A stretch of DNA of 37,992 nt. Origin: a virus. Both the position numbers and the translations under genes were made by a program. Location of the stretch: positions 1 through 37,992 of IMG/VR virus record IMGVR_UViG_3300007799_000007; one strand, given 5' to 3'. Positions 3,678-33,445 of the stretch are shown here, one piece after another. The first letter of the stretch is position 1. Every line of letters begins with the position of its first letter. The notes under the pieces are model-generated. The model was given only the letters and a program-made list of their open reading frames with translations. It had not been told where the DNA came from and ran no database searches.

Positions 3678-3690
3678 TAAACGCTGAACA

Positions 3691-3882
3691 ATGAACTACC
3701 TACTTAGACTGATTGCCTTTCCTTTTGTTTTTGGCCTTATTTTAATTTCAGCAGTTCGGCTAATAATTAAAAACTCGTATTTGTTTTTGCGATACGGCGG
3801 CGAATTGATGCTGTACAAAGAAAAACATACGCCTCAATCATTTGCCTTAGTTTTGAACAAGATCGAAGCACTTTTAAAATAA
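3691..3882 (+). CDS. Small membrane protein
   Basis: A 63-residue protein with one N-terminal hydrophobic segment (about residues 4-25, LLRLIAFPFVFGLILISAV) followed by a basic, polar tail ending in a short helix. No family is recognised. It starts 13 bp after the methyltransferase. Its first 60 bp are duplicated at 2870-2929. It ends just before the structured intergenic region that precedes the putative replication initiator. Confidence 0.65.
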   Translation: MNYLLRLIAFPFVFGLILISAVRLIIKNSYLFLRYGGELMLYKEKHTPQSFALVLNKIEALLK

Positions 3883-18156: not shown

Positions 18157-18266
18157 AAACGATAAAACTAAACCCGAAAAGTTGCCGGACAAGGAAATGC
18201 GGGAATGCATTCGATCCTGAAACGTACATGATACCTTTGAATTTACCGACTAAAAAAGCGGCATAA
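18153..18266 (+). CDS. Small basic protein (37 aa)
   Basis: ATG frame of 37 codons, preceded by GGAGG, one of the few clear Shine-Dalgarno-like sites in the window. It is basic with two cysteines (SCRTRKCGNAFDPETYMIPL). It overlaps the glycosyltransferase by 4 bp and the portal gene by 1 bp (TAATG). Coupled translation into the portal is likely; the function is unknown. Confidence 0.5.
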   Translation: MKTIKLNPKSCRTRKCGNAFDPETYMIPLNLPTKKAA

Positions 18267-20218
18267 TGTTAACACCGGAAGAACTTGAGGCAATAAAACA
18301 ATCCATCGTCCCAAAGTGGCGCGATTGGGAGGTCGCATATCGGCAATGGGAAGCAAGTAAAAAGTGGGGCCGGTACGCATCAAAAGACTTTGCAACGGAG
18401 CCAGTTTTGCCGGAATATTATACCGGATATCGAATGGCGGTTGACATGATGGAGCAAATTGATATCCATGCCTCAAAATACAGATACCCGGATAAGTTAT
18501 TTATCTGTCGCGCTCCCAATGAAACCGACGCGGAATATATTTACCGCAGGCAAAACTATAAGAACACCACCGCCCCGGTATTTTCCGATTATCTTGCAAC
18601 CGTTGGCCGGTCTAACTCAGATCAGAACTGGAGCCTAGAAACGGAAGATATTGCGTTGTATGAATACTTGACAAAACAACTGCCAAAATACAAAGACATA
18701 GGCGGTTATCTTAAAAACTTTATCACACCGTTAAAGGCAAAAGATGCGAATGGTATCATTGCGATTGAGCCAAAAAATATTCCATTAATACGCGACGAGG
18801 AAGGCAATATTTCGCTCAACGGGGAAGGCATGGCAATCATATCTGATGAGCCTGTTGAGCCGATGCCTGTCTATTATTCGTGCCGCCATATTGTAGCGCA
18901 GGAATTGGATGAATGGTATGCGGTTATATCCTACGAAAAATCAGAGGTTCAATTCAACGGCAAGTCGGTTAAAATGGGCCTCGTCGTTCGCATTTTTGAC
19001 GAAGCAAATATTTATGAATTTCGTCAGACCGGAGTATTTACAGACTACCAATTTACACCTGTATTTGTTCGCTATCCTCACACGTACGGACAAGTTCCTG
19101 CGGCCAAATTAAAAGGGATCGTTGCGTTAATAGAAGATAAAATCATTTACATATCGCACTTTTCGCCTGCTGCGGATTTGCTCGACCTTGTATTGTTAGA
19201 TGAGAGTAATTTATCAGCAATAAAGGCCACGTCGATTTACCCTTATAAGGTCGCACTTGGAACGCCCTGCACATTCGAGCGCGGCGGTAACCGTTGCAAC
19301 GATGGTATGCTGTTCAACCCATCCGCTGTTTCAGGCAATTACGACGGCGAAGGGAAGCAGATACTTGGCCGCGATGAAAGCTGCCCTAACTGTTTAGGCT
19401 CTGGATTAAGGCCGCGTATGTCACCTTTTGGCGTGCTATTGATTAACCCAGGAACGCAGTTAAATGAAACCGGCGACGGAAACATTAACGGCGATTATTT
19501 AAAGTTTGTTAGCCCACCGATTGACGCGCCGAGGTTCCTGCAAGAGCAAATCGACAAAAACGAGTACCGGTCGAGAAAGATTATTCATTTACAGGCGGCA
19601 GATACCGCAGTGACGGGCAAGGAGGGAATAAATCCCACCGCCTCGTTAAACAATGCGAGGGCGACATCCGCATTTATTGAACCGATATCGGATCAGACAT
19701 TCGAAATAATGGAAACGATGATAGGCGCGATCAATTCAATGCGTTTCACTGATGCCAAAGGATTTACCCTTACGAAGCCGCAGAACTTCGATATCACCAC
19801 GCCTTCGGATCAGTTGGAATTGATAAGCATATTTATTAAAGACGGATTGCCGCCGGGGCTAACCGCATACCATATCCAGAAGTACATTGCTTCAATTAGC
19901 TATACGAGTTCAAACCTTGCGAAATCGTTTAAGCTGATTATGGATCAGGACTTATTGATATGCGTTTCACCGGACGACATCAATCTTCGTTTAACGGCTG
20001 GAGACATTGAACCGTGGCGCGACACTTTGCACCAATCAGGATTTCAGCTTATAAAAATGCTGCTAGAAGAAGATCCGTTTTTCTTTACCCAAGATTATAA
20101 GATTCAAGCCGATAAGTTCATTCAGAAGGCGAAGGATGAAACGGTTGATAAGAGCCTTACCGATCCGGGAACAGCGGCAGCAGAGCAAATGCGACGAATC
20201 GCGGAAACAACTGCTTAA
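18266..20218 (+). CDS. Portal protein with a zinc-ribbon-like insertion
   Basis: A 650-residue protein, probably the dodecameric portal through which DNA enters the head. Support is size, position before the head genes and the overall pattern: an acidic helical start, a beta-rich middle, a long central helix region (residues about 440-520, EYRSRKIIHLQAADTAVTG, TFEIMETMIGAINSM) and a C-terminal helical tail. An unusual feature is a four-Cys element at C335, C344, C373 and C376, ending CPNCLGSG, a zinc-knuckle pattern. A minor-head or unrelated structural role cannot be excluded. Confidence 0.65.
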   Translation: MLTPEELEAIKQSIVPKWRDWEVAYRQWEASKKWGRYASKDFATEPVLPEYYTGYRMAVDMMEQIDIHASKYRYPDKLFICRAPNETDAEYIYRRQNYKNTTAPVFSDYLATVGRSNSDQNWSLETEDIALYEYLTKQLPKYKDIGGYLKNFITPLKAKDANGIIAIEPKNIPLIRDEEGNISLNGEGMAIISDEPVEPMPVYYSCRHIVAQELDEWYAVISYEKSEVQFNGKSVKMGLVVRIFDEANIYEFRQTGVFTDYQFTPVFVRYPHTYGQVPAAKLKGIVALIEDKIIYISHFSPAADLLDLVLLDESNLSAIKATSIYPYKVALGTPCTFERGGNRCNDGMLFNPSAVSGNYDGEGKQILGRDESCPNCLGSGLRPRMSPFGVLLINPGTQLNETGDGNINGDYLKFVSPPIDAPRFLQEQIDKNEYRSRKIIHLQAADTAVTGKEGINPTASLNNARATSAFIEPISDQTFEIMETMIGAINSMRFTDAKGFTLTKPQNFDITTPSDQLELISIFIKDGLPPGLTAYHIQKYIASISYTSSNLAKSFKLIMDQDLLICVSPDDINLRLTAGDIEPWRDTLHQSGFQLIKMLLEEDPFFFTQDYKIQADKFIQKAKDETVDKSLTDPGTAAAEQMRRIAETTA

Positions 20219-20233
20219 TCCAAATATTTGTTT

Positions 20234-20241
20234 TATGTTTG
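20234..20241 (+). promoter_or_regulatory. Promoter -7 box TATGTTTG
   Basis: A perfect TAnnTTTG match 16 bp after the portal stop. The expected transcription start (about 20247) falls at the first hairpin of the structured element that follows, so promoter and element look like one unit. No -33 TTTG at the right spacing is seen. Confidence 0.45.
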
Positions 20242-20242
20242 T

Positions 20243-20316
20243 TTATCCGTTGCGGGATAAGAGATTGGATTCGTCCATTTAAACTGCCTGACCTTCGCAA
20301 CGGGGTCGGGCTTTTT
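20243..20316 (+). ncRNA. Candidate structured RNA: three hairpins with complementary loops
   Basis: Hairpin 1 is TTATCC-GTTGCG-GGATAA (20243-20260). Hairpin 2 is TGGA-TTCG-TCCA with a UUCG loop (20266-20277). Hairpin 3 is GCCTGACC paired with GGTCGGGC (20286-20311, one G-U pair), followed by TTTTT, an intrinsic terminator. CCGTTGCG from hairpin 1 (20247-20254) is perfectly complementary to CGCAACGG in the loop of hairpin 3 (20296-20303), allowing a kissing-loop or pseudoknot. A promoter box directly precedes it. It could be a free small RNA or an attenuating leader of the gene at 20331. Confidence 0.55.
20286..20316 (+). terminator. Intrinsic terminator after the portal gene
   Basis: An 8-bp stem GCCTGACC/GGTCGGGC with one G-U pair, a 10-nt loop, and TTTTT. 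It ends 14 bp before the ATG at 20331 with no promoter box in between, so expression of the downstream glycosyltransferase needs readthrough. Confidence 0.65.
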
Positions 20317-20330
20317 AATTTGATACAACT

Positions 20331-21032
20331 ATGATTTCAGTAATTCATCCGTCACGAGGTCGCCCGGAGCGAGCGCGAAAGTCTTACGAGAGGCTTAGTA
20401 TAATGGCAACAGGGGAGTTTGAATTTATCCTTTCCGTTGATATTGACGATCCCGAATTGTCCAATTACAATTGGTTGTTTTCCGACTGCATAATTGTTGA
20501 AAGCAATAACCGATCAGTTACCGACGCAGTGCAAAACGGCTGCAAAATAGCAACGGGCGAAATGATGATGATTTTTTCAGACGACTTTGAAACAATGCCT
20601 AGCGGATGGGACTGGATGATTAAAAAAGCGGTAAAGGACAAAGAATTTTACGCTCTAAAAGTCTATGACGAGATTCATAGATGGATTCACACGATACCAA
20701 TTATTGACCGGAAACTGTATGAGTACCTGGGACATATTTATAATCCGATCTACCTGCATATGTTCGGCGATACTGAATTAGCATGCATTGGTGACCTGCT
20801 GGATATAACCATAACCCGGAATGATATTCGTTTCCCGCATCACCAATTTACCCGTTACCCAAAAACAAAGGATCATATCAATGACCGGAATAATTCCTTT
20901 TGGACTCAGGACGAAAAGGTATTTTTGGAACGCTGGAAAACCAATTTCGGTTTAAGGCCCGATCAAATTAAAGGAAGGATAAAAGACACCGGGACTATTG
21001 CATTTGTTAAAGGTAAAATCGGAATGCTATGA
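20331..21032 (+). CDS. GT2-like glycosyltransferase
   Basis: A 233-residue GT-A fold enzyme. It begins ISVIHPSRGRPERARKSYERL, the family's N-terminal strand and loop, then LSVDIDDPEL (about residues 34-43), NNRSVTDAVQNGCKIATGE, and the metal-binding IFSDDFE (about residues 82-88). The second half contains HMFGDTELACIGDLL, where GT2 enzymes keep a conserved acidic loop. Substrates are unknown. It opens the run of sugar- and methyl-transfer genes after the portal and is preceded by a structured leader with a terminator. Confidence 0.78.
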   Translation: MISVIHPSRGRPERARKSYERLSIMATGEFEFILSVDIDDPELSNYNWLFSDCIIVESNNRSVTDAVQNGCKIATGEMMMIFSDDFETMPSGWDWMIKKAVKDKEFYALKVYDEIHRWIHTIPIIDRKLYEYLGHIYNPIYLHMFGDTELACIGDLLDITITRNDIRFPHHQFTRYPKTKDHINDRNNSFWTQDEKVFLERWKTNFGLRPDQIKGRIKDTGTIAFVKGKIGML

Positions 21033-23446: not shown

Positions 23447-24007
23447 ATGGAAGGACAAGGACAGCCGTTTAACGGCGACACGTACTTAGAGAAGGAATTT
23501 CTAAGGCTAAAAAGAGATTTCAAGATTAAAAACGTTGTCGAAACCGGGACTTACCACGGCGACTCGACAGCATGGTTTGCGGCTAACTTTTTAGCGGTGC
23601 AGACCATTGAATTTAAAATGCCGCAATATTTGGAGGCAAAGAAAAAACTGGCCGCTTTAAAAAATGTTTCGATGGTACGTGGCGATTCTGCGCGTGACTT
23701 AAAAACAATGATTGAGGGACAGCCGAATTTGCTTATTTTCCTCGATGCTCATTGGTACGCAAATCCCGTTATTGACGAATTAAAACAAATTGCAGCCTGT
23801 GGATTAAAACCCGTTATTGCAATTCACGATTTCAAAGTTCCTAAAAAGGATTTCGGCTTTGATTCATACAACGGGCAGGATTATACTTTTGAATGGGTTG
23901 AGCCACATTTAAAAGCGATATACGGCGAGTTTGACTATCACTATAATACCGAGGCGACAGGCGCAATGCGAGGATGTCTGTTTGTTTACCCTAAAAAATC
24001 TTTGTAA
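23447..24007 (+). CDS. Class I SAM-dependent methyltransferase-like protein
   Basis: A 186-residue protein. NVVETGTYHGDSTAWFA (about residues 29-45) is a motif I-like glycine loop, QTIEFKM the strand 2 acidic end, NVSMVRGDSARDL a motif around the adenine pocket, and LLIFLDAHWYANPVIDELKQI a motif IV-like strand with D-A-H-W. The pattern is close to TylF or rhamnosyl O-methyltransferase-like folds. It closes the glycosyl and methyl transfer block, suggesting modified sugars as the product. Confidence 0.7.
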   Translation: MEGQGQPFNGDTYLEKEFLRLKRDFKIKNVVETGTYHGDSTAWFAANFLAVQTIEFKMPQYLEAKKKLAALKNVSMVRGDSARDLKTMIEGQPNLLIFLDAHWYANPVIDELKQIAACGLKPVIAIHDFKVPKKDFGFDSYNGQDYTFEWVEPHLKAIYGEFDYHYNTEATGAMRGCLFVYPKKSL

Positions 24008-25036: not shown

Positions 25037-25064
25037 AAAGCCTTTCAGCAATGGAGGGCTTTTT
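25037..25064 (+). terminator. Intrinsic terminator after the YopX gene
   Basis: A 10-bp stem (25037-25046 with 25053-25062, G-U pairs allowed) built on AAAGCC/GGCTTT, with a 6-nt loop and a T-run. It separates the accessory genes from the head genes. Confidence 0.75.
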
Positions 25065-25069
25065 AATTT

Positions 25070-25077
25070 TACCTTTA
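25070..25077 (+). promoter_or_regulatory. Promoter-like box TACCTTTA abutting the minor head start
   Basis: Seven of eight positions agree with the TACCTTTG form of the -7 box seen at 5562. The spacing to the ATG at 25082 is again 4 bp, implying a leaderless transcript after the terminator at 25037. Confidence 0.4.
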
Positions 25078-25081
25078 CCGC

Positions 25082-25996
25082 ATGGCAACATTTGAAGAAC
25101 TTGTAAAGCAGAAGATTGAAATCCTAGAAAACAGCCCGGAAAGATTTTCCTCCAGCGTGGAAAAGGCGCAGTTGAAGCTATGGAGTAAGATAGAAAAGCA
25201 ATTTGATAAGCTGCAAACAAAGGGCGGCAAAGTAGTTCAGAATAGTAAAAACCTTGCCCTAATAAACACAATAGTAAAGAGGCTAGGCGTTCTTATTTCT
25301 ACGGGCGACTACATCAAAGCCGTCCAGTCGTTTCTCGGTGAATACGATCAATCCGCAAGGATCAGCGACGACCTCGTTAAAACATTGGATAAGGCCTTTG
25401 TTCCTAATGCCTTTGCAAAACAAATACAGTCGCTCTACAGGGAGGCCGCAATAGATCAGCTATTTACTAATCCATCGTCCAACACTCAAACATCGTTACG
25501 GGCAAACCTAATCAGCTCAATTAGCTCAGGTGCAACATTCGCTCAAACGGTTAACTCAGCGCGTGAGATAGTGCAGGGAGGCCCGGACACAGATGGAAGG
25601 ATGCTTGCAAATATTAAGACGGTAGCGATCACCTCGATTGCCGTTTCAGACGCCGGTTATTCTGCTGCAATAAATAACCAAATCGTAGCCGAATGGTTCA
25701 GATATGTAGGTGGGACGATTGAAACCACACGCCCGTTTTGCCAACAAAGGAACGGCAAATACTACCACCGAAAAGAAATAGAAGCATGGGGAGCCGGGAA
25801 AGAATCCGGCGGCGCAGGAGCGATAAACGACGAGGGTAAATGGTACGGGCAGATTGAAGGCACAACGGCATCAACGATATTCACCAATCGCGGCGGCTGG
25901 AACTGTAGGCATTTTATTGTGGCCGTCCCGATCTCATCCGTACCGCCGGAAGTGATCCAACGGGCAATAGATGAAGGCTTTTTTAAGGCTGATTGA
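25082..25996 (+). CDS. Minor head protein with Mu gpF-like C-terminal domain
   Basis: A 304-residue protein. The N-terminal two-thirds is helical. The C-terminal part (about residues 205-290) has EWFRYVGGTIETTRPFCQQRNGK, then WYGQ, then RGGWNCRHFIVAVP, the R-x-FC...NG...GG-W-x-CRH pattern of phage Mu F/SPP1 gp7-type minor head proteins. These sit inside or near the portal and aid head assembly. It starts right after a terminator and promoter-like box, as the first gene of the head operon. Confidence 0.8.
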   Translation: MATFEELVKQKIEILENSPERFSSSVEKAQLKLWSKIEKQFDKLQTKGGKVVQNSKNLALINTIVKRLGVLISTGDYIKAVQSFLGEYDQSARISDDLVKTLDKAFVPNAFAKQIQSLYREAAIDQLFTNPSSNTQTSLRANLISSISSGATFAQTVNSAREIVQGGPDTDGRMLANIKTVAITSIAVSDAGYSAAINNQIVAEWFRYVGGTIETTRPFCQQRNGKYYHRKEIEAWGAGKESGGAGAINDEGKWYGQIEGTTASTIFTNRGGWNCRHFIVAVPISSVPPEVIQRAIDEGFFKAD

Positions 25997-27255: not shown

Positions 27256-27261
27256 TTTTAG

Positions 27262-27289
27262 GCCCGGTAATAATTTACCGGGCTTTTTT
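27262..27289 (+). terminator. Strong intrinsic terminator after the scaffold gene
   Basis: A perfect 9-bp stem GCCCGGTAA/TTACCGGGC (27262-27270, 27275-27283) with a 4-nt loop TAAT and six T. Confidence 0.9.
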
Positions 27290-27341
27290 ATTGTTCATTA
27301 TCAACACGTTATAAAATAAATACAAATAATGTTTGAATAAG

Positions 27342-27372
27342 TTTGCAGAATCAAAAGGAAGGTGTATCTTCG
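27342..27372 (+). promoter_or_regulatory. Bacteroidota-type promoter TTTG-N19-TATCTTCG
   Basis: TTTG at 27342-27345 and TATCTTCG at 27365-27372 are exactly 19 bp apart, the canonical spacing for the Bacteroidota primary sigma factor. The -7 box differs from consensus at one position. It drives the small gene at 27416 after a strong terminator. Confidence 0.65.
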
Positions 27373-27415
27373 TATAGTTGAAAGCAATTAAGCGCAACGA
27401 TAAAAAACAAACAAA

Positions 27416-27694
27416 ATGAAAAAGTTCTATTTATTTCAAAACATAGGCGTTGCAGAAAGATTTTTTTGCGGTAACATTTACGAAAATTTACCAACGGATC
27501 GTATTAAATATCACGGGGAATCAATGATGTTTAAAGATTGTTGCGAAGAGGGCATTTGCAAAGAGTTTGACAGTAGAAAAGAAGCTAATCAATACAGCTT
27601 TATGGAACAAGAATCAATGGAAGATTCAAATAATTACGCAAATCAAGCAATGCGTGATGAGGAAATATATGGATGCGAGGGTGTAGATTGTTAG
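27416..27694 (+). CDS. Small acidic Cys-containing protein
   Basis: A 92-residue protein with a beta-like start (KKFYLFQNIGVAERFFCGNIY), a Cys cluster (DCCEEGICKEF, about residues 41-51) and an acidic C-terminus ending GCEGVDC. No family is recognised. It has its own promoter and the A-rich AAAACAAACAAAATG leader, and behaves as an independent cassette between scaffold and capsid genes. Confidence 0.55.
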   Translation: MKKFYLFQNIGVAERFFCGNIYENLPTDRIKYHGESMMFKDCCEEGICKEFDSRKEANQYSFMEQESMEDSNNYANQAMRDEEIYGCEGVDC

Positions 27695-28014: not shown

Positions 28015-29085
28015 ATGTCAATCTTCTCAGACTTAATTGACTGTCCCAACCTGCTCGTTAACGTCGATCAGGCTTTCTCAAGGCCCGGCGTAATTCAAGA
28101 GCCGCTCCCATTTTTGCAATACGTTCTATCAAACACCATGCGTGAAGGGCTATCACTAGCGATGCTTCCCGGTGATGCTCACGTGCGTACGGTTCAGGTT
28201 AAATACGTTCAGCGATTGAACGAAACAACTGTGCAGGCAAACGTTCCGAATCCAAACTGCTCTCCAGGGGTAGTGTACAAGGAAAAGTCCACAACTTACG
28301 ACATGGACACCTCGGTAAACTTCGGCGTTGGATTTCGCTGGAGCATTAAAGACTTCCAACGGATCTGCGGCGGTACACCTCAAATCATATTTGATATGAT
28401 TGCCAAGCTAGGTGATGCACTTGATCGTAAAGTAGCTACCAGTTTTGCCAATAAAGTCGTTACAAACCACATTGGAAATTGGGCGCGCGATACGCAGAAC
28501 TATAACGGTACTGTTGTAACCCAGCCGACTTTAAATGTGGCCACCAAACTGGCGAACGGAAACACCGATCCAACGCTTTACGAAGTGGTACGCAGGGCAA
28601 TGGCTGTCAGCGGCTACGGTTCGGCAGCGGTATTCACCGATCAGACGCTCCTTCAGTATGCTAACAATGCAGTTACTGGATGTTGCGTTAACGATTTGGG
28701 TTATGACCTTGCAGCTCAACTGGCGAGATACGGAATCGTATTCACATGGGATCGCAGGATTGAAACAGCGTTGAAGCTGCTTAACCCTGATGGAAATGGT
28801 TTAATGGTAGCGCCGGGATCACTTGCAGCGGTATCATTTACTCAGGCAGAATGGAAAAACGGCGTTCCACTTGCAACAGAAGGCGGTAACTACTTCTACA
28901 CGTCGGTATTTACTCCTGCGGGATTAAAGGCAGACCTTACGTTTAAGGACGACTGCGGTGATGTTGTTTTAAACATGGTTGTTACGACCGATATCTTCGG
29001 AATGCCGGACGATTTGTACTCGAATGAGGATGTGTATTCAGGCATCGTTGGTGTTAACAAGATAACGGTTACCAACCCTTCCTAA
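28015..29085 (+). CDS. Major capsid protein
   Basis: A 356-residue protein placed after the scaffold-like gene, with its own promoter and leader. N-terminal SDLIDCPNLLVNVDQAFSRPGVIQE precedes an alpha/beta body with LGDALDRKVATSFANKV (spine-helix-like), a loop with LYEVVRRAMAVSGYGSAAVF, and a C-terminal part with AWKNGVP-like and TSVFTPAGLKADLTFKDDCGD. The pattern fits HK97-fold capsid proteins in general, although no signature is diagnostic. No protease gene is nearby. The orphan C-terminal-like fragment at 29085-29162 follows directly. Confidence 0.75.
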   Translation: MSIFSDLIDCPNLLVNVDQAFSRPGVIQEPLPFLQYVLSNTMREGLSLAMLPGDAHVRTVQVKYVQRLNETTVQANVPNPNCSPGVVYKEKSTTYDMDTSVNFGVGFRWSIKDFQRICGGTPQIIFDMIAKLGDALDRKVATSFANKVVTNHIGNWARDTQNYNGTVVTQPTLNVATKLANGNTDPTLYEVVRRAMAVSGYGSAAVFTDQTLLQYANNAVTGCCVNDLGYDLAAQLARYGIVFTWDRRIETALKLLNPDGNGLMVAPGSLAAVSFTQAEWKNGVPLATEGGNYFYTSVFTPAGLKADLTFKDDCGDVVLNMVVTTDIFGMPDDLYSNEDVYSGIVGVNKITVTNPS

Positions 29086-29162
29086 TCGGGATTCAGAAAC
29101 TATTTGAATCAGGAGCAGAGTTCCTTTTTGAGTCCGGAATACCATTTCTGTTCAATCATTAA
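29085..29162 (+). pseudogene. Orphan FESGxxFLFESGIxFLFN fragment
   Basis: In the -1 phase after the capsid stop, a start-less frame encodes KLFESGAEFLFESGIPFLFN before its stop. The end of the tail gene at 15035-16639 encodes FESGNAFLFESGIRFLFN. The two DNA stretches are also similar. It is probably a duplicated or left-over gene 3' end. A frameshifted capsid extension is conceivable, but no proper slippery site precedes it. Confidence 0.55.
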
Positions 29163-29166
29163 TATT

Positions 29167-29195
29167 GCACCGGGCATATTTGTCCGGTGCTTTTT
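29167..29195 (+). terminator. Strong intrinsic terminator after the capsid gene
   Basis: A perfect 7-bp stem GCACCGG/CCGGTGC (29167-29173, 29184-29190) with a 10-nt loop and TTTTT. It ends only 12 bp before the ATG at 29208 with no promoter box in between. Confidence 0.88.
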
Positions 29196-29207
29196 AACAC
29201 CCAATGT

Positions 29208-30212
29208 ATGTGCTTTGAAACGCTGATAGGAATTAAAGAATGTGGTGAGCCAGAACCGAAATCAAAACTTTATGTGGACGATTACGGCATCACCATTTCC
29301 CAATTAGATCAGCTATACACGAGCGACTATCCAACCGGATTGCTCCTTTTTAAATCCAAAAGAAAGGCGGCAGGCGAACTGATTTCTTCACTTGTAAATA
29401 ATCAGCTTGCATCATGGATGAAGGCTGATACGATTATAGATAATTCAAAAATAGGCTTCATTGAAAACAACCTTTCCCCTTACGATCCGGCTTTGGGCGC
29501 GGGTATTTACGTAGGTGTTTCACAACGGCTATACAACAGGGATTCATTCGTTTATATCTTTAACTCGAACGTCTTTCTTTCCGCTGATGTAAATGTGGAA
29601 GTTGAGTTAAAAATCGTTGATCTTAACTTGAATAAGGTTATTGATACGATAACAATTAACACCAACGAGAATACCATTATTGACAAAGAATACTTTTCCA
29701 ACCGGAACGATTTATATATCGGCATTATGTATGAAAGTACATTTGCCGCTCAACGAACAATTTTAAGGGAGGGGTATTGTGGTTCCTGTAACGGGAAAAA
29801 TGCACCCGTTAATCATAATCAATTCGTTACGATTCAGGGGATAAAAGGAAGTATTGCCGGGGAAGTATTTTCCGATTTGCAGGGCTATGCATACACGGGA
29901 GGCTTGCAGATTAACTACGCGGTAAACTGCGATAGGAAGGCGTGGATTTGCAGCAACTCTAAACTGTTTGCGCTCGCCCATATCTTTAAGACTAACGCTT
30001 TACTTATGCAGTTCGCACAATTTGAAAGCGTAAACGAGAGGGCAAATACTCAGGTAACAATTAATGCAGAGGCGGCAAAGTTACGTGAGGATTTCTACAC
30101 CGATCAGTTCAATAAGCAAATGACGACGGTATTATCGAACATGAGGATGCCAAAGGATAGCTATTGTTTCCGGTGTAATGAGAATCTGAAATACAGTTCT
30201 ATGATACCATGA
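29208..30212 (+). CDS. Structural protein after the capsid gene (head-tail candidate)
   Basis: A 334-residue protein starting MCFETLIGIKECG. A GTG at 29187 lies inside the terminator stem and is unlikely. The first half has helices (LLLFKSKRKAAGELISSL) and a beta segment (VELKIVDLNLNKVIDTITIN). The second half has two CxxC-type pairs (YCGSCNG and CFRCNEN near the C-terminus), perhaps a zinc site. Position between capsid and connector genes suggests head completion or neck; no family recognised. Confidence 0.55.
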   Translation: MCFETLIGIKECGEPEPKSKLYVDDYGITISQLDQLYTSDYPTGLLLFKSKRKAAGELISSLVNNQLASWMKADTIIDNSKIGFIENNLSPYDPALGAGIYVGVSQRLYNRDSFVYIFNSNVFLSADVNVEVELKIVDLNLNKVIDTITINTNENTIIDKEYFSNRNDLYIGIMYESTFAAQRTILREGYCGSCNGKNAPVNHNQFVTIQGIKGSIAGEVFSDLQGYAYTGGLQINYAVNCDRKAWICSNSKLFALAHIFKTNALLMQFAQFESVNERANTQVTINAEAAKLREDFYTDQFNKQMTTVLSNMRMPKDSYCFRCNENLKYSSMIP

Positions 30213-30787: not shown

Positions 30788-31350
30788 CGATATTAAAATC
30801 AATTATCGACGTTTTAAACGCTAAAATATTGGCAACGAATATCGTTACAAAGGCGTTTGGCATTGCTGTCAAATTAGACCGTTTAAAGGACAAAGCAGAC
30901 TACGGTATTTATATCGGAGCTGGTCAATTAGAGCCTGTGACAGACTTTGATAATTGGATTGGGCAATCTTTCTGGATTAAAAACGGATCACCTGCGATCA
31001 ACCCTAGTGATGCCTCACGCGCGCAATCCTCCTGCGATAACAGTTCGGACTATTCATATCCGATGCGATTGGTTGCCGTCGCGAAGAAAGACAGTTTGCC
31101 GTGTGATAATTACATAGCTTCTGATGCAATCGCGCAGACGTTTATTAAAAGACTTACGGGGCGTTACAACCCAAACGAATTGGGTATTTCGTCAACGTTT
31201 GCCGCCATTAATGCGCGGGAGTATACGGACGAGTTTCCTAATTTAATCCTGCCGTATACGCTTGCGTTGGCAGTAATTGACTTTAATTTTAACATAACAA
31301 TTCCGAATAATTGCATACCGGATTTGTGTCAAACTGAAAACTATGGGTGA
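30784..31350 (+). CDS. Putative neck or tail terminator protein
   Basis: A 188-residue alpha/beta protein. The order connector, this gene, then fibre suggests a neck or tail terminator protein. Visible elements are the helix ILKSIIDVLNAKILATNIV, DYGIYIGAGQLEPVTDF, and a long C-terminal strand LPYTLALAVIDFNFNITIP. Several Cys lie in the second half. Overlaps are 4 bp upstream and 8 bp downstream. Low certainty about the exact role. Confidence 0.45.
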   Translation: MTILKSIIDVLNAKILATNIVTKAFGIAVKLDRLKDKADYGIYIGAGQLEPVTDFDNWIGQSFWIKNGSPAINPSDASRAQSSCDNSSDYSYPMRLVAVAKKDSLPCDNYIASDAIAQTFIKRLTGRYNPNELGISSTFAAINAREYTDEFPNLILPYTLALAVIDFNFNITIPNNCIPDLCQTENYG

Positions 31351-33445
31351 GAAACTAACGGCACAACCGGAAAAAATAACCGGATTTGCGGACGATGATT
31401 TAATTCATACCGTCGCGGGTGGTGAGTCGTGGAAGGTTAAGTACATTAATCTTATTAAGTTCTTTTGGAGTAAAATTTCGGGCCGTGACATTGTAAATTC
31501 CGGCAATGGATATATAACAATTAACGATTACACCTCCCTCGATATATTCTCATCGGAGCCGACAAATTTTACCACTACCCTGTCTGCTGACACAAGCGCA
31601 AATCATTTAATTATTCTTTCATCCGGCGGACCTGATTTCGTGACGGTAACTATTAATTCGTACCCATCGCCAAAGGACGGGGCAATAGTGCAATTAAGGC
31701 TTTCGGAAAAAGGCACAACTGACTTAATTATTTGTGGTATTAATTGGCCGGGTTCTGCCTTTGCGGCTGGTTTATATACGATTCGATATTCCGGCGATGC
31801 TGGTGCGTGGTTGCCGATTAACTTCATTCCTTTTGGAATTGTATCGGCTTCTGAACTTGCCGCTTATCAGTTAATTTCTAATAAAGCTACTAATTTCTCA
31901 ACAGTAAATAACACGTTATATCCTTCTGTTCAAGCGGTTGTTGATTATGTAACCGCGTTTCCAGTCGCCCCTGTTTCGACCGACGACGTCACTAACGCCT
32001 CCCTCTATGCAGGTGCAACTCAGACGGACGTTAACAATGTGGCGAAATCCATCATCTATGGGGGCGGTTCTAATCCGGGTGTAAGTCAGGACTCAAGTCA
32101 GGGCTATTCGGTAGGTTCGCTGTTTGTCAATCAATCCAGCGGCGTTACTTTCCGGGCGGAGGATGTTTCTGCGGGTGCTGCTGTTTGGGCTGTTAAGAGC
32201 GATAAATTTACCTCTCAAAATTCGATCTTCGTTTCCTCGGTAAATACAGGCAACGCGGCGGCAGATGCAATTTCCAACGGCGTTCTTTTAAGGGCTGCAA
32301 TAACGGCGGCAAATGCTTTGGTCGTTGGAACTAGGGCAATCAATAACCGTGTGGCAGTTGTATTAACGGGCGGCACTTATGATGCAGATGGAGTAGGCTT
32401 TACTATTCCTTCTTTTATGGATATTGTCGGATTAAGCTCTAGCGCGGGTGATACTATACTGACTAATACTACGGGCGATTATACCCTTATTGCAGGGGAA
32501 AATGTCGATTACGGCTTGTACAATATTGACTTACGTCCAGGAGCCTTAGCTGCATTAAATGATGACACTTCAATAGGTCAATTTCACCGATGGAACAATG
32601 TTTTAATTTCGGGGTTAGTAACCACGGGAATGAGTACTCTGTTCGGCGATTTCCGCAGGATTAGGGCGACCAACGATGTTGAATGGGCTGTTGTTTCGGG
32701 TTCTATTGGTGGTTACCACGAGATTGAATTTGATGCTACAGTGACGCAGGTATATAATAGCGCAAACGGAGATTTAGGCGGCGTTATAAATTTCAAGGGA
32801 CAGAATTTTGGAAATTTTTGTTTTTTTGGAAGTGATTTTTCAGCACACGTAAACGGCACGGCTGGCAATTTTGGAAATCTCTGTTTTGCCACAATTGACG
32901 GCAACTTTAGCGGATCGGCAAATCTAAAGGCGGGTAATTACGGAAACGATTGTTTTTTTGCAGGAAATGACTTCTCGGGGCCGGTAAAAGGAACGTTCGG
33001 CAATTTTGGAAATGGCTGTTTTAGTTGTGGCCCCGGCAACTTCTCGGGGCCGGTAAAAGGGACGTTCGGCAATTTTGGAGATAATTGTTTTGTGTCTAAT
33101 GGCGCAGATTTCACACCCTCTTTAGAAATAACTACGGGAGCTTTTGGAGTAGACTGTATGTTTGCTATTGGCATTTTCGCCCCGACAATTATAAACTCAA
33201 ACATTGAAGAAATAACTTCGGGATTAACAGGCTCACTAATAAACTCAACCGTTAGATCAAAAGCAGTTGGCGTTGGTGACCTTGCCAAAATAGAACGCTG
33301 CAAAATATTAGGAAGTAATGGAACTAACTCAATTATTGGAACTACAACCTCCGCGCAGATACTCGACACTAACTCGAGTATGCCAATCGCCGCAGGTGTT
33401 ACGGGCGTTTTAAATGGAAACTATAATAATGCCTCGTTGACTTAA
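31343..33445 (+). CDS. Tail fibre or tailspike with beta-helix repeats
   Basis: A 700-residue receptor-binding candidate. The N-terminus (LTAQPEKITGFADDDLIHTV) is typical of virion-attached fibres. SNKATNFSTVNNTLYPSVQAVVDYV (about residues 178-202) is a fibre element common in Bacteroidota phages. A pectate-lyase-like beta-helix region follows from about residue 320. Residues about 488-620 hold six tandem 22-23 residue repeats of the form NFGNxCFxxxxxFSGPVKGTFG. No glycosidase catalytic pattern is certain. A 41-bp repeat (32970-33010, 33039-33079) with one mismatch lies in the array. Confidence 0.75.
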   Translation: MGEKLTAQPEKITGFADDDLIHTVAGGESWKVKYINLIKFFWSKISGRDIVNSGNGYITINDYTSLDIFSSEPTNFTTTLSADTSANHLIILSSGGPDFVTVTINSYPSPKDGAIVQLRLSEKGTTDLIICGINWPGSAFAAGLYTIRYSGDAGAWLPINFIPFGIVSASELAAYQLISNKATNFSTVNNTLYPSVQAVVDYVTAFPVAPVSTDDVTNASLYAGATQTDVNNVAKSIIYGGGSNPGVSQDSSQGYSVGSLFVNQSSGVTFRAEDVSAGAAVWAVKSDKFTSQNSIFVSSVNTGNAAADAISNGVLLRAAITAANALVVGTRAINNRVAVVLTGGTYDADGVGFTIPSFMDIVGLSSSAGDTILTNTTGDYTLIAGENVDYGLYNIDLRPGALAALNDDTSIGQFHRWNNVLISGLVTTGMSTLFGDFRRIRATNDVEWAVVSGSIGGYHEIEFDATVTQVYNSANGDLGGVINFKGQNFGNFCFFGSDFSAHVNGTAGNFGNLCFATIDGNFSGSANLKAGNYGNDCFFAGNDFSGPVKGTFGNFGNGCFSCGPGNFSGPVKGTFGNFGDNCFVSNGADFTPSLEITTGAFGVDCMFAIGIFAPTIINSNIEEITSGLTGSLINSTVRSKAVGVGDLAKIERCKILGSNGTNSIIGTTTSAQILDTNSSMPIAAGVTGVLNGNYNNASLT
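32970..33079 (+). repeat. 41-bp tandem repeat in the fibre gene
   Basis: Two copies 69 bp apart (32970-33010 and 33039-33079), identical except for one base, each starting ACTTCTCGGGGCCGG. They encode FSGPVKGTFGNFG. The low divergence suggests recent repeat-unit duplication in the receptor-binding gene. Confidence 0.75.

Follow-up and report, generated by a model that had tools for sequence, protein, structure and literature searches.

Leaky intrinsic terminators occur between phage genes, for example after capsid genes, as in T7 after gene 10. Kissing-loop RNAs are exemplified by ColE1 RNAI/RNAII and by TAR/TAR*, and UpxY/LoaP antitermination acts at the leaders of polysaccharide operons. 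In the enterobacterial small RNA RydC, a pseudoknot protects the molecule from decay and a 5′ seed is exposed (PMC4337610). For Bacteroidota, PMC7366714 gives TAnnTTTG as the -7 box, and PMC9723704 places the flavobacterial box at -12 to -5. The latter classes transcribed regions at predicted intrinsic terminators of Flavobacterium psychrophilum as partial termination.

The element described here lies in an uncultured phage, and the window that we analyzed (37,992 bases) is the whole virus record. Bacteroidota are the likely hosts because the relatives are phages of that group together with Chryseobacterium contigs: of the 17 phage records that the tape-measure protein matched, 16 belong to phages of Porphyromonas, Parabacteroides, Bacteroides or Alistipes, and two Chryseobacterium contigs carry terminase relatives at 47%. 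The element sits in a 112-base gap between two plus-strand genes. The upstream gene (18266-20218) encodes a 650-aa protein that gave no match in family searches but has distant homologues (19-23% identity) in seven of 12 related virus records, and, judging from its place, it probably closes the virion/tail module. The downstream gene (20331-21032) encodes a glycosyltransferase (phrog_14945, E 1.7e-17) and is the first of its module. The interpretation that we favor, and hold to be reasonably probable, is that a leaky intrinsic terminator marks the border between the tail and glycosyltransferase modules, within the glycosyltransferase leader, where it determines sugar-gene dosage and leaves an RNA of ~70 nt as a by-product. 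Polymerases arriving from the tail genes and from a promoter at 20234 would in part stop at 20312-20316, the remainder would read on, and the glycosyltransferase would be translated from the read-through RNA. The terminator would in this way fix how much sugar-gene product is made for a given level of tail-gene expression, and the by-product RNA of 67-71 nt (20246 to 20312-20316) need not itself be functional.

The plus strand at 20286-20316 has the form of an intrinsic terminator. A G+C-rich stem of 10 pairs (20286-20295/20302-20311, -16.6 kcal/mol), the top two of which are U-G, encloses a 6-nt loop, CGCAAC (20296-20301), and is directly followed by a U5 run (20312-20316). The 14 nt from the U-run to the glycosyltransferase ATG are too short for a separate promoter, so the gene would be transcribed through the terminator; leakiness is deduced here from the gene order only. 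The ATG at 20331 lies 19 nt past the end of the stem. A hairpin about 20 bases away is as near as one can stand without covering the ribosome landing site, and this distance suits an RNA that is both read through and translated. Among the terminator-like sites on the plus strand of the window, four have 10 or more pairs, and at three of them (20286, 25037 and 29167) the stem ends 17-19 nt ahead of the next ATG; the fourth, at 27260, has a gap of about 130 nt downstream with promoter-like boxes. In Bacteroides phage C1_85S2P, a strong hairpin after the annotated major capsid gene lies 19 nt before the next ATG, and Parabacteroides phage PD491P1 has a strong hairpin with the same 19-nt placing at the corresponding position. 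Like leaky phage terminators, the element has a strong stem and a U-run between co-directional genes and leaves no space for a promoter ahead of the downstream one, but it differs in the promoter box just upstream and in a terminator loop that is complementary to an upstream loop. If the leaky-terminator interpretation is correct, the element is an ordinary dosage device, mainly useful for annotating Bacteroidota phages, in a genome where the promoter boxes in gaps are conspicuous and strong terminators tend to sit just beyond the reach of the ribosome before the next gene.

The box at 20234-20241 on the plus strand, TATGTTTG, matches TAnnTTTG. The window has 22 intergenic gaps that are 30 bases or longer (3,026 bases in total), and on their sense strand this motif occurred 10 times against 1.9 in shuffles, with none of 1000 shuffles reaching 10; these counts depend on our choice of genes, and one of the ten matches (2905) probably lies within a short coding frame. 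The antisense strand of the gaps had two matches against 2.2 expected, and the window as a whole had 45 against 39 by chance, i.e. no excess. Most TAnnTTTG boxes in gaps are thus probably promoters, and from the sense-strand enrichment we infer that the box at 20234 is likely one as well. It resembles the Bacteroidota housekeeping promoters of PMC9723704 and PMC7366714 in its exact -7 box, its sense-strand orientation and its intergenic position, and differs from them in that TTTG at about -33 is absent at the expected spacing. That motif was not identifiable in Flavobacterium johnsoniae either, according to PMC7366714, and is therefore not required in all Bacteroidota. Its absence here nonetheless counts against the favored interpretation and is in keeping with an alternative in which the terminator is real and all the rest is chance: the promoter box would not be used, the first two hairpins would be incidental, and the loops would match by coincidence. 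We consider this improbable, and the enrichment of TAnnTTTG on the sense strand of gaps argues against it.

Because the flavobacterial box spans -12 to -5, transcription from the 20234 promoter is predicted to start near 20246, within the 5′ arm (20242-20248) of hairpin 1. This hairpin (20242-20248/20255-20261, -6.5 kcal/mol) has seven pairs and the loop GUUGCG (20249-20254). In RNA beginning at 20246, only three of the seven pairs are left (-2.8 versus -6.5 kcal/mol intact), so the promoter RNA would carry a truncated hairpin 1 and, given the predicted start, the intact form is found only in RNA read through from upstream. The original prediction of a promoter box followed by three hairpins, the last with a U-run, is confirmed in part: these features are present, but a single RNA that has both the 20234 promoter and an intact hairpin 1 is unlikely. 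The UUCG hairpin of that prediction, hairpin 2 (20266-20269/20274-20277), is present but weak, with four pairs and -2.6 kcal/mol. Its closing pair is A-U and not C-G, which puts it outside the extra-stable cUUCGg class.

The full 97-nt stretch forms a more stable fold than 197 of 200 shuffles (z -2.42), and most of this signal comes from the terminator. The preceding 44 nt (20242-20285) have no excess stability, 10.5% of 2000 shuffles folding equally well, which would be expected if hairpins 1 and 2 were incidental. Hairpin 1 on its own is unremarkable.

The loops of hairpin 1 and of the terminator, GUUGCG and CGCAAC, are complementary at all six positions. The match of 8 nt that had been described as loop complementarity exists, between CCGUUGCG (20247-20254) and CGCAACGG (20296-20303), both on the plus strand, although on each side six of the bases are loop bases and two belong to the stem. 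The duplex is worth -12.6 kcal/mol over 8 bp and -6.9 kcal/mol over 6 bp. When the 67 nt upstream of an unchanged terminator loop were shuffled (40,000 shuffles per setting), a hairpin with a complementary 6-nt loop arose in 1.0%, 0.31% and 0.13% of shuffles for stems of at least 5, 6 and 7 pairs, respectively. The chance of the loop match given the terminator is thus about 0.001 to 0.01, a figure that flatters the match, which had been spotted before testing. When a terminator was not demanded, kissing pairs were common, with at least one in 104 of 200 shuffled genomes, as the chance alternative would predict. When it was demanded, none appeared in shuffles of 3 x 421,905 and 5 x 427,319 bases (3.4 Mb in total), which speaks against coincidence, although such shuffles are poorer in terminators than real DNA. 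Outside the window, no kissing terminator was found in 30 related loci and 10 further records (of the latter, L086 is the same contig as L007), which is weak evidence on a recurrent class as these contain few terminators. The leaky-terminator interpretation does not need the complementarity, which has a chance of about 0.1-1% given the terminator and is a point against this interpretation. The element is like ColE1 RNAI/RNAII and TAR/TAR* in having two hairpin loops that are fully complementary over 6 nt, and differs in that both are in one molecule and one is a terminator. We regard the loop contact, possibly a pseudoknot between the 5′ end and the terminator loop, as putative.

The same complementarity could act during transcription. 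In RNA prefixes with 3′ ends from 20302 to 20307, the nested fold of lowest energy is, with all seven of the starts tested, the long-range helix 20247-20254/20296-20303, and from 20308-20310 onward the terminator fold wins. Together with the 6/6 loop match, this would suit a regulated attenuator in which a kissing loop, in read-through RNA, or the long-range helix, in promoter RNA, alters termination to differing extents. The helix, however, takes up the terminator loop and only the two U-G pairs at the top of the stem. The other eight of the 10 pairs remain free and can close around it as a pseudoknot, so the terminator stem is neither blocked nor sequestered, and a classical antiterminator was rejected. 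The 8-bp helix and the 8-bp terminator stem can coexist, with UU joining them on one side and a direct junction on the other. By rough hand arithmetic, with a large uncertainty, the energy of this pseudoknot comes near the -22.3 of the nested fold; a computed barrier of 17 kcal/mol excludes pseudoknots and therefore does not apply.

Candidate regulators of such an attenuator were also sought. Rfam gave no match at gathering score and, below it, five weak matches at chance level, none of them a riboswitch. The only leader reading frame noticed has 10 codons and begins with a TTG, and we found no support for either a leader peptide or a riboswitch. A NusG-like gene (PF02357) was not found in the window record, while the control search was positive in 10 of 14 genomes. 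The element resembles the sites of UpxY/LoaP action in that a leader with hairpins precedes glycan genes and the setting is likely Bacteroidota, and differs in the lack of a NusG-like gene in the window and in having its own terminator near the gene. We therefore judge a regulated attenuator to be quite unlikely. The original proposal of a small RNA or an attenuator for the glycan genes is near the mark, since the promoter, the terminator and the leader position are supported, whereas the overlap of the helix with just two U-G pairs, the Rfam result and the NusG search leave the regulated switch unsupported.

The small-RNA half of that proposal would have a stand-alone transcript of ~70 nt made from the 20234 promoter and protected from decay by a compact pseudoknot, in which the unpaired 5′ end (CCGUUGCG) would bind the loop of the terminator and eight terminator pairs would be kept. 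Truncation of hairpin 1 would free the 5′ end for this, and the 8-bp helix (-12.6 kcal/mol as a duplex) is compatible with the 8-bp terminator stem at an energy near that of the nested fold. A start site and a terminator mark high-confidence Bacteroides small RNAs (PMC7366714), and an intergenic gap of Flavobacterium phage 11b has a TATATTTG box 43 nt ahead of a terminator. On the other hand, there was no Rfam match at gathering score, and duplexes of the 5′ part with the phage's own RNA were no better than in shuffles (best duplex -23.6 versus shuffle minima of -22.1 to -26.6 kcal/mol, n=10), and a target in trans among the phage's own RNAs was rejected. CGCAACGG occurs three times in the window, twice in one downstream gene (21889 and 21915), which 18 of 300 shuffles matched or exceeded. 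The predicted RNA would be like RydC in being possibly short, ended by a terminator and pseudoknotted, but its 5′ end would be paired where the 5′ seed of RydC is exposed. A stand-alone small RNA is, in our view, unlikely. For a functional small RNA, as for a regulated attenuator, the loop match is the sole positive evidence.

A further variant, which we hold to be highly improbable, is that the terminator senses the origin of the transcript. RNA starting at 20246 would lock its 5′ end onto the terminator loop, read-through RNA would only kiss, and unequal termination or decay would couple the sugar genes to the source of transcription. A loop contact that influenced termination or the stability of the RNA would offer a compact means of distinguishing transcripts by their 5′ ends.

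The search for homologues of the element used the flanking 650-aa protein, two glycosyltransferase-module proteins, a tail protein and the glycosyltransferase-8-like protein, as well as DNA similarity and two loop patterns, and none was found in the collections searched. A looser loop pattern gave 47 contigs with 53 scored matches, none of which had both stems; the match in L050 has a 10-pair terminator stem at the pattern loop and lacks hairpin 1. The seven records that carry a 650-aa protein homologue offer no gap for comparison, as the end of the homologue is overlapped by the reading frame that follows. Terminase relatives were found at 30 loci and, in genomes, on the two Chryseobacterium contigs and one other contig, and the closest relatives (70% and 62%) are fragments that end short of the element. 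A literature search that combined kissing loops with phage intrinsic terminators and small RNAs yielded a single review, on FinO/ProQ proteins.

Several other features were noticed along the way. In Flavobacterium phage 11b (L094, 30327-30400), a hairpin that ends in a T6 run lies no more than about 45 nt past the TATATTTG box, forming with it an unannotated small-RNA-like unit; the intergenic gap that contains them has another promoter-like box closer to the next gene. In the window itself, sites 25037-25082 and 29167-29208 are strong plus-strand terminator-like hairpins so near the following ATG that a promoter would hardly fit in between. Within 28015-29162, the ORF stops at 29085, and coding-like sequence continues in another frame up to a stop near 29162 that directly precedes a terminator; the frame change is perhaps a frameshift, programmed or due to an assembly error. 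The gap at 27256-27416, past the terminator at 27260, contains a strong-looking Bacteroidota promoter, TTTGC followed about 19 nt on by TATCTTCG. An A-rich leader precedes the ATG of the gene at 27416, and similar leaders recur at 24005 and 24661. A 59-nt stretch is present in two copies with 92% identity (2869-2927 and 3690-3748) and resembles the beginning of a gene for a small membrane protein. Finally, degenerate repeats of ~69 nt at 32788-33091 lie inside a 700-aa ORF (31343-33445), which possibly encodes a fibre-like repeat protein.
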